DNA from: an uncultured Fluviicola sp. | GTDB taxonomy: Bacteria; Bacteroidota; Bacteroidia; Flavobacteriales_D; Crocinitomicaceae | Direction of reading: 5' to 3' | Length of the DNA: 64,000 nt | Assembly (NCBI GenBank): GCA_913009205.1 | Contig: CAJVYC010000003.1 | Span: forward strand, 62,001 to 126,000 | In this document: one piece after another, positions 49,222 through 54,941 of the stretch | Layout of the letters: each line of letters begins with the position of its first letter | How positions within the stretch are numbered: the first letter of the stretch is position 1 | Program-made: the position numbers and the translations under genes | The notes under the pieces: model-generated | The model's input: only the letters and a program-made list of their open reading frames with translations | What the model was told of the DNA's origin: nothing | Database searches by the model: none

Positions 49222-52029
49222 ATGATTACTCCTGAACTCGATAAAAAGCTCTTTCTAATTGACGCTTATGCACTAATATTTAGAGCCTATTTTGCATTTG
49301 CGAAAAACCCAAGAATCAACTCTCAAGGACAAAATACGTCAGCAGCATTTGGCTTCACCAATTCATTGATTGATATTTTGAAGAACGAAAAACCGACGCA
49401 CATCGCCGTAGTTTTTGACCCTCCCGGCGGTTCTACAGGAAGGAAGGAAGAATTTCCAGAGTATAAAGCGCACCGTGACGAAACCCCTGAGGGAATTATT
49501 TCGATGGTGCAACCGATCAAGGATATTATCGCAGCATTCAATATTCCAATTATTGAAGTGGCAGGTTTTGAGGCGGATGATACGATTGGAACCTTGGCAA
49601 AGATGGCCGAAAAGGAAGGTTTCAATACGTTTATGATGACGCCAGACAAGGATTTCGGACAATTGGTAACGGAGAGATCAAAGATGTTTCGACCAGGAAG
49701 AGGAGGTAACCCAGCTGAAATATGGGGCCCAAAAGAAATCTGTGAGCGTTTCGACGTTGAAAGAGTAGAGCAAGTAATTGACGTTCTTGGACTGCAAGGA
49801 GATGCTGCGGATAATATCCCGGGAATTCCTGGTATTGGGCCAAAATCGGCATCGAAACTGTTAAAAGAATTTGGTTCGGTGGAAGGAATAATTGCAAATT
49901 CTGACAAATTGAAAGGCAAGCAACGCGAGAACATCGAAAACTACGCAGAGCAAGGATTGATGTCAAAATCATTGGCAACAATTATAGTAGATGTTGATGT
50001 TAAATTCGACGCGGAAGATGTAAAAATTTGCCCACCTGATGATTATAAAATTCGGGAAGTGTTTACGGCCTTGGAGTTTAGAAATCTTGCAAGACGCGTT
50101 TTGGGCGAAGAGATAGTTGTTACAAAAGCAAACGATACGGTTGGCAGTCAAATGGATTTGTTTGGAGCACAGCAAAGTTTGGTTGAAGAACAAGCGCCAA
50201 AAGAAACGGCCGATTTTAAGACAATTGCAACTGAAAAGCCGAGTTATCATTTAATTACGAAGCCTGAAGAACGCAAGGAATTGCTTGAGCTTTTATTGAA
50301 GCAGAAATCAGTTTGTTTTGATACGGAAACAGATAGTATTGAGGCACTTCACGCAAATATAGTTGGGATGTCATTCTCGTATAAAGCGAGAGAAGCGTTC
50401 TATGTTGCAACGCCGCCTGATTTTGAAGAAGCAAAGAAAATCGTTGAAGAATTCAGGCCCTTTTTTGAGTCCGAAACGATTGAGAAAGTAGCGCACAACA
50501 TCAAGTTTGACATCAAGATAATCAACAGATATGGAGTCAAGGTTTTGGCACCAATGTTCGATACAATGATCGCACATTATTTGATCAATGCGGACTCTAA
50601 GCAAAGCATGGATTTTCTTGCTGAGATGTATTTGAGTTACAAACCCGTTTCGATTGAGGAATTGATCGGGAAGAAAGGAAAGAATCAAAAATCGATGGCA
50701 GATTTGCCTGTTGATGAAGTATACGATTACGCCTGTGAAGATGCGGACATCACTTTTCAGTTGAAAGAAATTTTCGAGCCTGAAATTCAAAAGGAACATT
50801 TAAAAGACCTATTTTACAATATGGAAATGCCGCTTGTTGATGTTTTAAAAAGCATGGAACAAGAAGGAATCGCGATTGATTCTGAAGGGCTTCTTAATTA
50901 TTCGAAGGATTTGGAAATTTCGCTTGTTGAATTAGAGAAGAACATCAAGGCCCAGGCTGGAATGGATTTCAATATCGATTCGCCAAAGCAATTGGGACAG
51001 GTATTGTTCGAACACATGGAGATTTCTACTAAGGCGAAGAAAACGAAAACAGGACAATATGCTACTGGGGAGGATGTCCTCCAAAAATTGAAACACGATC
51101 ATGCTATTATTCCAATGATTTTGGATTACAGACAATTGAGAAAATTGAAGAATACATACGTCGATCCACTTCCAACATTAACGGATAAGGTTGACGGTAG
51201 GATTCACACCAACTATATGCAAACTGTTGCTGCGACGGGCCGTTTGAGCTCTAACAATCCAAACCTTCAAAACATTCCAATCCGCTCTGATAAGGGGAAA
51301 GAGATTCGAAAATCATTCATTTCTAGAGGTGAAGGATTTAAATTAATGGCGGCGGATTATTCACAAATTGAATTGAGAATCATTGCAGCTTTGAGTGATG
51401 ACGACAACATGAAAGCGGCGTTTAAAGAAGGGCATGACATTCACAAAGCAACAGCTGCAAAAGTGTTCAATGTTCCACTTGATGAAGTCACAAGAGATCA
51501 ACGAAGCTCGGCGAAAGCTGTCAATTTTGGAATTGTCTACGGACAGTCCGCATTTGGATTGGCGCAGAATCTTGGAATTTCTAGAAAAGAAGCAAAACAG
51601 ATTATCGATTCTTATTTCGGTCAATATCCAACAATCAAAGGATACATGGATGATGCTGTGAAAAAAGCACGTGAAAACGGATATGTTGAAACAATTATGA
51701 AACGCCGCAGGTATTTGAAGGATATTAATTCAGCCAACGCCGTTGTAAGAGGGTTTGCCGAGCGAAATGCCGTAAATGCACCGATTCAAGGTTCTGCCGC
51801 GGATGTTATCAAAATGGCAATGATTGGTGTTGATGGAGCAATGAAGGAAGCGAATATGAAATCAAAAATGCTTCTTCAAGTGCATGATGAATTGGTTTTT
51901 GATGTTCATGAAAGCGAAATCGATGCCTTACAGAAACTGGTAAAATATGAAATGGAATCTGCTGTAGAAATCGGAGTTCCGCTGGACGTTGAAATGGAAG
52001 TAGCTGACAATTGGCTGGATGCGCATTAG
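49222..52029 (+). CDS. polA: DNA polymerase I
   Basis: 935 residues. N-terminal FEN-type 5'-3' exonuclease (LIDAYALIFRAYFAF, VAGFEADDTIGTL, DKDFGQLV, GLQGDAADNIPGIPGIG), a 3'-5' exonuclease domain with all signature acids (CFDTETDS for exo I, AHNIKFDIK for exo II, YACEDADITFQ for exo III), and the family A polymerase with palm motifs AADYSQIELRI and LQVHDELVFDV, fingers RDQRSSAKAVNFGIVYG and IQGSAADVIK. All three activities look intact, unlike Taq-like forms that lost proofreading. It repairs and processes DNA in the cytoplasm. Single-gene unit. Confidence 0.97.
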   Translation: MITPELDKKLFLIDAYALIFRAYFAFAKNPRINSQGQNTSAAFGFTNSLIDILKNEKPTHIAVVFDPPGGSTGRKEEFPEYKAHRDETPEGIISMVQPIKDIIAAFNIPIIEVAGFEADDTIGTLAKMAEKEGFNTFMMTPDKDFGQLVTERSKMFRPGRGGNPAEIWGPKEICERFDVERVEQVIDVLGLQGDAADNIPGIPGIGPKSASKLLKEFGSVEGIIANSDKLKGKQRENIENYAEQGLMSKSLATIIVDVDVKFDAEDVKICPPDDYKIREVFTALEFRNLARRVLGEEIVVTKANDTVGSQMDLFGAQQSLVEEQAPKETADFKTIATEKPSYHLITKPEERKELLELLLKQKSVCFDTETDSIEALHANIVGMSFSYKAREAFYVATPPDFEEAKKIVEEFRPFFESETIEKVAHNIKFDIKIINRYGVKVLAPMFDTMIAHYLINADSKQSMDFLAEMYLSYKPVSIEELIGKKGKNQKSMADLPVDEVYDYACEDADITFQLKEIFEPEIQKEHLKDLFYNMEMPLVDVLKSMEQEGIAIDSEGLLNYSKDLEISLVELEKNIKAQAGMDFNIDSPKQLGQVLFEHMEISTKAKKTKTGQYATGEDVLQKLKHDHAIIPMILDYRQLRKLKNTYVDPLPTLTDKVDGRIHTNYMQTVAATGRLSSNNPNLQNIPIRSDKGKEIRKSFISRGEGFKLMAADYSQIELRIIAALSDDDNMKAAFKEGHDIHKATAAKVFNVPLDEVTRDQRSSAKAVNFGIVYGQSAFGLAQNLGISRKEAKQIIDSYFGQYPTIKGYMDDAVKKARENGYVETIMKRRRYLKDINSANAVVRGFAERNAVNAPIQGSAADVIKMAMIGVDGAMKEANMKSKMLLQVHDELVFDVHESEIDALQKLVKYEMESAVEIGVPLDVEMEVADNWLDAH

Positions 52030-52308: not shown

Positions 52309-54159
52309 TTAAATACTTTCAACAAAATCTAAAAATACTTTCTTATGCAATTCAAGATCCATATTTGGAGAAAGTGCAACGCGTGCAATATAATCTTTGT
52401 CGCCCTCTTTCGTTGTTCCTTGCGTAGATGTTGCAGGGATTGTCCAATAACACCCATTTAACTGGCCATAACTCACACAGTACTTGCTCTCATTCGGAAT
52501 TTCTGTAATCATTAAATGGATCAATTTATGATTTAACGCCCTTTTGTAAGACTCTCTTTCTTCATCCGTATCCCCTTTTGTAGGGAGGTCCAATGAAAAT
52601 ACAGACGGGGTAAATCCTTGTTCGGCCAATTCTTCTGAAACAAAATTGATTTTCGCTTCCGCCAAAGTAACGTTGATGAAGTTTACAAATTCACGCGTAT
52701 TTTTATAAGCATCCTGAATTCGTTGTTTCATTGAAGGCAATTGCTTGGCCAAAATTTCATATTGAAGATTTGTAGCCTCGTTGTCGCAGAGGTATAGGTG
52801 TAATTCTATTTTTTCCATCAATTCGTCCGTTTTCGTATTTCCGATACAATAGCCAGCAGTGCATTGCCCACCACTTGGAAATTTCGATCCGCTTGCAAAT
52901 GAAATAGTTCGAACCGTTGAGAGAATTTCACCTTCGCCTAAAAAGCGCACATTTGGACAAAATGTTTGGTCTAAAATAAAAACGGGATCGGTCGCAATTT
53001 CACCTGTTGGCGTTTTACGTTCTTGACTTAAAACATTTTTTAATTGGATAAGATCTGGAACTTCAACTCTAGGGTTGGTTGGGATTTCCGCGATGATATA
53101 GGGGACAGCATCGTCGATTGCAATTTCTGCCAAAACCAGATCAATACTTTGAACCATATCATTAGCACCATCAACAGGTAAATCAACAATTTCAACATTA
53201 TCAATGCAAGCAGCAACACGTCGGGCTTGGTCATTTGTTCCACCGTAACAATTGGGAGGAACAATAATTTTAATCGCTTTCCCTTTATGATTTTCTAGAG
53301 CATCGTGAATGAGGCCCATTAATATTGCATACTGAACAGAAAGTCCACTTGAAGCAACCAACGCCTTTGTTTTTGAGCCGGTCACGGTTGCAATTGATTT
53401 TAAGACACTTACTTTGTCTGCCGCGTTACTTTTTTGAGAAACAGAGGAAGACGCACCTGTTAAAGCTTCTAACGCAGCAAGAGAATTGGCGGGTGTCATG
53501 GCAATTGTTTCTCTTCTTCGAACGTGTTGAATTTCAGGGGTGTATATTTCATTTTCCGCTCCATTTACAAATAAAACACTTCCCAAATGAGAATGAGCGT
53601 TGATAAAAAAGTCAATATTCGGCCTAAGATCAAAAGAAGAAATTTCGTCTTGTTGAGAAATGAAAATAGTACTTCCGTCGAACGGTGAAATGTCAGATGT
53701 ATTTACAACATTCCGTAAATCAAACGTATACCCATAAACACTTCTTAATAATTCAGCATCAAAAAATCCGGGCAATTCACCTGAATAAATTATTTGGGTG
53801 CTCTTATTGTCTAATAAATTTTTTCTTAGAATGGCCAAAACAGGAACCGTCTTTGATGAAAAACTGATTACATTATTTGGCACTTGATTGTTTAATTTAG
53901 CAATTGCCCATTCAAGGATACAAGATAATGGATGCCCCAATCGAATATAGTCAAAAGCAGTAGGCAATTCATTGAGTGCTGATGATTCAGAATTGTTATC
54001 ATTAAATAAGTTTTCAAACTGATCTAAGAATTGACTTTTGGCCAAGTTTTCATTATAAATATCTAGTCGATGCGTTGTTAGATTCAACCAGCCCGTTGGT
54101 TTATTTCCTAATACGTCTTTAATATAATTCAGCATTTTATTGTCTTGCATAATGTTCAC
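52309..54159 (-). CDS. Long PLP-dependent enzyme of the Cys/Met metabolism family
   Basis: 616 residues, about 220 longer than a normal cystathionine gamma-synthase or beta-lyase. The family core occupies the C-terminal two thirds: KALVASSGLSVQYAILMGLI near residue 263, PPNCYGGTNDQARRV, AEIPTNPRVEVPDL, and the lysine that would hold PLP, Lys426 in FASGSKFPSGG. The N-terminal part includes residues 71-112 (FDYIRLGHPLSCILEWAIAK), which itself resembles the opening of the same fold. It likely acts on sulfur amino acids, but specificity is not readable. Single gene; convergent with polA, with 155 bp to the DUF6438 gene. Confidence 0.82.
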   Translation of the reverse strand: MNIMQDNKMLNYIKDVLGNKPTGWLNLTTHRLDIYNENLAKSQFLDQFENLFNDNNSESSALNELPTAFDYIRLGHPLSCILEWAIAKLNNQVPNNVISFSSKTVPVLAILRKNLLDNKSTQIIYSGELPGFFDAELLRSVYGYTFDLRNVVNTSDISPFDGSTIFISQQDEISSFDLRPNIDFFINAHSHLGSVLFVNGAENEIYTPEIQHVRRRETIAMTPANSLAALEALTGASSSVSQKSNAADKVSVLKSIATVTGSKTKALVASSGLSVQYAILMGLIHDALENHKGKAIKIIVPPNCYGGTNDQARRVAACIDNVEIVDLPVDGANDMVQSIDLVLAEIAIDDAVPYIIAEIPTNPRVEVPDLIQLKNVLSQERKTPTGEIATDPVFILDQTFCPNVRFLGEGEILSTVRTISFASGSKFPSGGQCTAGYCIGNTKTDELMEKIELHLYLCDNEATNLQYEILAKQLPSMKQRIQDAYKNTREFVNFINVTLAEAKINFVSEELAEQGFTPSVFSLDLPTKGDTDEERESYKRALNHKLIHLMITEIPNESKYCVSYGQLNGCYWTIPATSTQGTTKEGDKDYIARVALSPNMDLELHKKVFLDFVESI

Positions 54160-54314: not shown

Positions 54315-54875
54315 TTAATCCTGCTCGCTATTTTCCACCGCTTCCCATTTTTGTGATTTAAGAAGTGCATCGAACAATTCTTCAAACTGAAGGATGCTTC
54401 TAGGAAAGTCATACCTGCGGTAAACAGATTTCTTAATGCCGTTCAGAACAATTGTCGTTGTTGCAGAAGGAAGGTCAGTAACCATTCCGTCGTATTTATC
54501 TTCCATATCCATGAAGCCAACGCGGTTTGCACGAATTCTAAAATTCTGAACTTGATTTACTGTCAATTTAGACGTATATTTTCCGATAAGGTCAACACCA
54601 CGAATTCCGTTCAATTCAACAAATCCATTTTCATAGATTGTCATTTTATATGTTGGACAGTTTCCGTAACAAGGAGTTCGAACAATACTTGCAAAAAACA
54701 CTCGATCCATTGTGCCTTCTTCTGATTCTTGAGCAACTTGTGTTGTAGGCGCTTCGGATACAACTGTGTCTTTTGGAGATTCTACTGTTGCCGCTGCACC
54801 CTCTATTGTTTTACAAGCCGTCAATAATCCAGGGAATGTCAATGCGAATAATGAGATTTTCAATGTAGTTTTCAT
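54315..54875 (-). CDS. DUF6438 domain lipoprotein
   Basis: 186 residues from the ATG at 54875, chosen because it gives a lipoprotein signal (TLKISLFALTFPGLLTAC, Cys21); an upstream in-frame ATG would add 15 unlikely residues. After a Thr/Glu/Ala-rich linker the DUF6438 domain starts with IVRTPCYGNCPTYKMTIYEN, its usual signature, and continues with GVDLIGKYTSKLT and KKSVYRRYDFPRSI. Function of the family is unknown. The gene is divergent from the DUF2891 lipoprotein gene. Confidence 0.85.
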   Translation of the reverse strand: MKTTLKISLFALTFPGLLTACKTIEGAAATVESPKDTVVSEAPTTQVAQESEEGTMDRVFFASIVRTPCYGNCPTYKMTIYENGFVELNGIRGVDLIGKYTSKLTVNQVQNFRIRANRVGFMDMEDKYDGMVTDLPSATTTIVLNGIKKSVYRRYDFPRSILQFEELFDALLKSQKWEAVENSEQD

Positions 54876-54913
54876 AACTTCTGGTTTGGGTTTATTAAGT
54901 ATAATCAAATAGC

Positions 54914-54941
54914 TTGCCACTTCTCACTTTTTGTATCTTTA
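54914..54941 (+). promoter_or_regulatory. Promoter of the DUF2891 gene
   Basis: TTG at 54914-54916, 17 bp spacer, TATCTTTA at 54934-54941, just 4 bp before the ATG at 54946. The transcript would have almost no leader. Confidence 0.45.

Follow-up and report, generated by a model that had tools for sequence, protein, structure and literature searches.

In CalE6, Lys197 and most contacts come from one subunit, and Tyr46' and Arg48' reach the PLP phosphate from the neighboring subunit, as set out in the available portion of the paper (PMC4851618). For Yll058w (Hsu1), about 180 residues form a region that has no homology to MetY/Met15; a prediction has it folding back to provide the active-site residues missing from the monomer, and Str2 and Yml082w are given as its close paralogs in the same partly available source (PMC9763685). 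Yll058w has been presented as a homocysteine synthase in the accessible text of a further report (PMC9757880).

In the window (the whole 64,000-nucleotide stretch of DNA that was analyzed), we found a gene for a long enzyme of this kind. Our favored reading, to which we give a probability of roughly 0.77, is that one chain here forms a pseudo-dimer of the cystathionine gamma-synthase/lyase fold (PF01053), in which an N-terminal half (N1) would replace the subunit neighboring the catalytic C-terminal half (C2). The features compared are listed here; the boundary of N1 at residue 234 is our own reading of the alignment, and Arg593 is a residue that we take to bind the carboxylate.

52309..54159, minus strand: whole gene, long Cys/Met-metabolism PLP enzyme of 616 aa
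53458..54159, minus strand: N1 (residues 1-234), putative degenerate copy of the fold without the catalytic lysine
53941..53949, minus strand: Tyr71-x-Arg73, putative counterpart of the neighbor-subunit PLP-phosphate ligands, aligned to YSR of ordinary enzymes
53482..53547, minus strand: conserved helix segment at the end of N1 (residues 205-226), which holds QHVRRRETIAMTP; mean entropy 0.39, the lowest of the N1 stretches compared
53410..53481, minus strand: variable linker between the copies (residues 227-250); entropy 1.97, the highest compared
52312..53430, minus strand: C2 (residues 244-616), putative catalytic copy without the Tyr-x-Arg arm, from the VIA match to 7swh
53341..53352, minus strand: SSGL (residues 270-273), counterpart of the family's SGM phosphate-binding turn, aligned to SSGM
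53245..53247, minus strand: Tyr305 (in CYGGT), counterpart of the PLP-stacking tyrosine, aligned to YGGT; 113/113
52969..52971, minus strand: Asp397, counterpart of the PLP-contacting aspartate, aligned to VDNTF; 113/113
52882..52884, minus strand: Lys426, putative Schiff-base lysine, its SGSKF aligned to the SATKY region; 113/113
52381..52383, minus strand: Arg593, presumed counterpart of the carboxylate-binding arginine, aligned near LIRLSV; 113/113

The open reading frame starts with GTG, with an ATG at codon 4, and lies between two neighbors that were named by reading: polA (49222-52029, plus strand) on one side and a small lipoprotein-like open reading frame (54315-54920, minus strand) on the other. 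Pfam assigned the 616-aa protein to PF01053 with 32.1 bits (cut-off 27) and a best stretch of residues 254-497; in a six-frame search of the genome the same family gave 23.4 bits at this locus, below the cut-off. NCBIfam returned weak matches to ordinary family members, none of which approached its cut-off, and the best match to a cystathionine beta-lyase/gamma-synthase equivalog, TIGR01329, reached 32.5 bits against a cut-off of 487.5. The PF01053 catalytic set is present in order, with the phosphate turn (S270/G272), Tyr305, Asp397 and Lys426 each found in 113/113 sequences. The single-copy layout of the family, in which a chain of about 400 aa carries a Tyr-x-Arg arm of its own ahead of the SGM turn, was not found in this 616-aa protein, whose departure from the PF01053 norm is one of architecture, not of fold. 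A search with Rfam gave only one tRNA above the gathering score across ten loci, and no match between positions 50000 and 57000 of the window.

The 113 sequences comprise the window protein, 79 of the 80 relatives that were kept and 33 sequences from the class and phylum genome samples. Because the latter were read from one stop codon to the next, they may be shorter than the lengths used. One locus (L047), whose match is full length, was left out of the entropy, the 113-sequence counts and the motif tests. Since all 113 are closely related, at 63-80% identity to the window protein, counts of invariance among them are not independent.

An earlier note, made from the DNA letters, had placed a normal catalytic core with Lys426 in the C-terminal part of the protein, and this was borne out: Lys426 lies in SGSKF within C2, residues 244-616. 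The full-length structure was predicted from an alignment of the window protein and 31 of the 80 kept relatives (mean pLDDT 78.2, pTM 0.83). In this model C2 superimposes on residues 41-427 of 7swh (VIA Z 27.2, 316 residues, 2.8 A), and in the profile comparison C2 aligns from residue 250 to residues 60-370 of 29 ordinary enzymes. The starting set held 31 loci of ordinary enzymes, one of them from the window's own genome, and a length filter removed L140 and L149 to leave these 29. Asn362 of C2 is also kept in 113/113 sequences.

The sequence evidence for a second copy comes from several comparisons. The earlier note had likened residues 71-112 to the opening of the same fold; the likeness is supported by TIGR01329, by the profile comparison and by shuffling, but the motif that carries it, FDYIRLGHPLSCILEW, sits at residues 69-84. 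When members of the long subfamily were scanned without their C-terminal parts, TIGR01329 (cystathionine beta-lyase) matched the N-terminal parts of 30 of 32, with a best E of 1.1e-4. In the window protein, N1 residues 66-157 match TIGR01329 positions 36-121 (E 0.0024) and C2 residues 252-379 match positions 52-161, and positions 52-121 of the profile fall within both matches. PF01053 itself matched five of the 32 N-terminal parts (best E 0.0058), a set that does not include N1 of the window protein. A profile of N1 built from the 113 sequences aligned at residues 66-159 to residues 46-136 of the 29 ordinary enzymes with a score of 32.0 and an E of 0.0013, at an hhalign probability of only 18.5%, and placed DYIRLGHP on DYSRAGNP. 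None of 300 column shuffles reached 32.0 (best 30.4). With a smaller N1 alignment of 32 sequences the score was 30.3, one of 100 shuffles scored higher (31.4) and the reversed profile gave 19.4. By these profile measures, the likeness of N1 to the opening of the fold is more than chance.

When the N1 profile was run against 395 genomes from the phylum, it found 12 long enzymes, among them that of the window, and one other place, a 371-aa protein. We take the latter for a HisC-like aminotransferase, another PLP enzyme of fold type I; its E of 0.0018 is per genome and is therefore at about chance level across 395. Matches among PDB sequences were weak: the N1 profile had none at E up to 10, and a PDB sequence search gave 9vsm in the right register at E 1.5, ranked behind a thioredoxin fusion at E 0.55. 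The whole protein against PDB sequences gave a transporter chain (E 0.27). The earlier note had also proposed a self-comparison of the two halves, and here direct comparison of the N1 and C2 profiles detected no similarity; the link that would make this a duplication runs via the ordinary enzymes.

The predicted fold extends the likeness beyond the arm. Modeled alone (residues 1-222; pLDDT 83.6, pTM 0.82), N1 has helices at 77-89, 105-116, 135-141 and 206-220 and strands at 97-100, 121-126, 147-151, 163-169, 184-189 and 193-198. C2 opens in the model with helices at 246-260, 272-290 and 307-318 that alternate with strands at 267-269, 296-300 and 322-326, and the order of the opening elements is the same in both predicted halves. 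With N1 alone as the query, the first 22 Foldseek matches in the PDB were all cystathionine/methionine lyases (best E 6.4e-5); cysteine desulfurases and further enzymes of fold type I came at lower ranks. In VIA, all 50 matches listed belonged to the Cys/Met type, with Z between 8.0 and 9.3 over 168-188 residues at 3.7-4.2 A. In most VIA rows listed, residues 1-219 of the model span the ordinary chains from their first residues to about 227-276, and a few are numbered further along (1ibj, 85-311; 7nl1, 31-262). By this comparison of its predicted fold, N1 covers ordinary cystathionine/methionine enzymes from their start to about residue 230-275. Although Z values of 8-9 are modest, barely above the zone that VIA labels a common arrangement, the assignment is persuasive because family and register are consistent across rows. 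A placement of residues 1-230 in an unrelated fold, which would have spoken against the earlier note, was not what the N1 model gave, as its matches are to enzymes of the Cys/Met type.

These results bear on whether there was a duplication at all. The arm could be the normal opening of the fold, with some 160 unrelated residues inserted behind it, and it is true that the arm and the catalytic lysine occur once each and that N1 and C2 fail to align with one another. We regard this as very improbable, because the N1 model follows the family fold well beyond the arm, to the equivalent of about residue 230-275, because TIGR01329 positions 52-121 are matched twice, and because C2 is predicted to have a helix of its own, 246-260, ahead of SSGL. 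Predicted fold and profile together show, at the level of such models, a two-copy architecture. The partial duplication or extra same-fold domain of the earlier note is supported by the fold comparison of N1 and the double coverage of TIGR01329, but N1 is larger than an opening and is not merely extra.

The last point follows from how the catalytic residues are divided. Y71 and R73 are each present in 113/113 sequences, and a Y-x-R in the lead-in to C2 (residues 224-268) was found in 0/113. Likewise, residues 183-204 of N1 showed an SxTK-like motif in 0/113, and N1, judged by eye, is also without the region in which ordinary enzymes have their aspartate. The arm motif is present in 28 of the 29 ordinary enzymes. 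Ordinary members of the family hold the PLP phosphate in part with a Tyr and an Arg from one subunit and take the lysine from another. As C2 has no Tyr-x-Arg, N1 carries the sole one and cannot be simply additional. Judged from sequence, the two halves show complementary loss, and the residues that each retains are invariant.

Conservation is distributed in a comparable way. Mean entropy over 80 sequences was 0.43 for the Tyr-x-Arg segment (66-90) and 0.39 for segment 205-226, close to the best stretches of C2 (0.41 for 266-325, 0.50 for 351-440 and 0.41 for 521-616). Other C2 stretches gave 0.67-0.79, with 1.30 for residues 251-265. In N1, residues 21-36 gave 0.59 and the stretches outside these three segments 1.04-1.28, with 1.08-1.28 for its body (91-204). 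This pattern fits what would be expected if N1 were kept for a surface that faces the active site.

Within segment 205-226, R214, R215 and R216 are each found in 113/113 sequences and E217 in 112/113. The QHVRRRETIAMTP segment is as conserved as the catalytic core and may be a second active-site piece supplied in trans. In the methionine gamma-lyase of P. putida, a charged pair is supplied by neighboring subunits; the RRRET segment was considered as a counterpart of this pair and set aside, the register being ambiguous. The same conserved segment could bind a ligand, as might be expected if N1 were mainly a regulatory or substrate-delivery domain of same-fold origin and the cofactor phosphate were bound in some other way. 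We find this improbable, given that the invariant Y71 and R73 align with the phosphate ligands of the family and that C2 is without them.

On the single-chain pseudo-dimer reading, an ancestral enzyme gene would have been duplicated in tandem or fused. C2 would have retained catalysis, with Lys426 forming the Schiff base, Tyr305 stacking, Asp397 and the phosphate turn, and N1 would have dropped the lysine and most of the cofactor site but held on to its N-terminal arm, where Y71 and R73 lie. By docking on C2 as a permanent partner, N1 would bring these two residues to the Lys426 site from the same chain, so that a single polypeptide would form a single complete active site; the enzyme may then be a monomer or a looser oligomer. 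In the full-length model pLDDT falls below 50 at residues 29-35, 70-72, 304-306, 360-364, 402-404 and 558-589, and in the model of N1 alone at 72-74. Low confidence at the arm itself counts against the placement of Y71 and R73. In the full-length model the Tyr-x-Arg lies in one such stretch, as do the stacking tyrosine and the NP loop; that all three would meet around the absent cofactor is no more than suggestive.

N1 of one chain could instead dock on C2 of the next, giving a swapped dimer or a higher oligomer. CalE6 is a homotetramer, held together by the same N-terminal loop according to the available portion of its description (PMC4851618). The monomer model, with its pTM of 0.83, suggests a defined placement of N1 on C2 within one chain, and Yll058w is predicted to be monomeric in the available text (PMC9763685), and we therefore consider a swapped form unlikely. 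If the single-chain pseudo-dimer is correct, it would be a natural example of a subunit-shared active site internalized within one chain, it would hint at the identity of the puzzling extra region in long cystathionine-synthase-like enzymes, and Y71 and R73 of the dead half should govern cofactor binding in the live half.

The length of the protein had been called unusual in the earlier note, which gave about 400 residues for ordinary family members. The second figure holds and the first statement does not. At least 517 relatives were confirmed, and of the best 80 that were kept (74-80% identity, full length), 79 read 613-630 aa. The enzyme was present in 33 of 395 genomes sampled from the class, its own included; 32 copies are essentially full length and one shorter match covers residues 5-451, the open frame there being 458 long. 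In the phylum sample it was present in 12 of 395 genomes, again including its own. Ordinary PF01053 members occurred in 61/61 sampled genomes at E 1e-40 or better, in stop-to-stop frames that by eye are mostly about 378-480 long, with extremes of 333 and 729 among those listed at the cut-off. As relatives have the same length, the long enzyme belongs to a standard subfamily, an outcome that the earlier note had named as refuting its observation; it is a regular, patchily distributed Bacteroidota subfamily and not a freak.

Horizontal spread of the enzyme is likely but not proven. In 11 sampled genomes the enzyme was 65-78% identical to that of the window, compared with 52-57% for PolA. Within the window's own family, one other sampled genome (G558) has the enzyme, and 10 other sampled members are listed without it. 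A tree of 50 of the 113 sequences mixes families, with nine of 47 inner branches starred and a bootstrap that has not settled. The copy from G558 is among the most distant (64.5%), and that from G103, of another family, is 78.8% identical. A further copy (L006) lies on a contig labeled Paludibacter and groups with Bizionia saleffrena (100/99), either through mis-binning of the contig or through recent transfer. A plasmid search for the enzyme gave no matches. Among 81 loci, 54 of them fully flanked, the commonest neighbor cluster occurred in only five, and no window gene was among the 13 neighbor clusters listed; gene context is therefore uninformative on function.

The enzyme probably acts on a sulfur amino acid or an activated homoserine, by beta- or gamma-elimination or by replacement. 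PF01053 finds one strong ordinary enzyme in the host genome (364.9 bits), which NCBIfam names 'cystathionine gamma-synthase family protein' above its cut-off, and a second place barely over the cut-off (33.5 bits). MetA (PF04204) had no match in the host genome and MetX had a partial match of only 20.7 bits; the MetX search is a soft test, as in a control it gave a signal in nine of 14 genomes, none above the cut-off. Since no clear homoserine acyltransferase was found in the host genome, a homocysteine synthase reading is lowered. De novo homocysteine synthesis by the window enzyme in this host appears doubtful from gene content, and a lyase activity or a special substrate is as likely. MetH of the same genome comes in two pieces, neighboring matches on two open reading frames that overlap slightly and lie in different frames (G000:C4:137268-140820).

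The comparison with known systems begins with BesB, whose product is an alkyne amino acid. BesB (PDB 9aua/9aub; 538 aa) was the only long chain among the 50 Foldseek matches listed for the full model, with 467 columns aligned to its 500-residue chain at E 5.9e-11 and 12% identity. Its TMq of 0.46 is little above the approximately 0.41 of single-domain enzymes and does not imply an equal placement of domains. The two enzymes share an EIP-NP/VPDL stretch, through the profile match to PDB sequences (E 0.36). Ordinary cystathionine gamma-synthase, methionine gamma-lyase and CalE6 have the fold common to both halves and the catalytic residues of C2, but they are about 380-430 aa long and consist of one copy, in contrast to the two of the window enzyme. 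In CalE6 the Tyr-x-Arg comes from an adjacent subunit of the homotetramer, by the available description (PMC4851618), whereas here it would come from N1 of the same chain. The window enzyme has an extra region and residues divided in a complementary way between its halves, and its extra region may complete the active site of one chain as that of Yll058w is predicted to do. However, the extra region of Yll058w is called non-homologous to MetY/Met15 there (PMC9763685), whereas that of the window enzyme resembles a degenerate copy of the same fold.

Duplication and complementary loss may have turned an obligate homodimer into one chain in a single event shared by Str2/Yll058w, BesB and the Bacteroidota family, whose N-terminal regions would all be decayed enzyme copies; we offer this tentatively, at somewhat less than even odds. 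A literature search with narrow terms found neither a described Bacteroidota counterpart nor PLP pseudo-dimers, and a broader one, judged on titles and abstract openings of the papers listed, found no such enzyme described. The statement that the extra region is a decayed copy is absent from the text available in these searches, which did not extend to the BesB structure paper. The fold-back region of Yll058w and BesB show that the kind of enzyme is already known; what this bacterial family adds is an extra region that itself seems to be the enzyme's own fold in decayed form.
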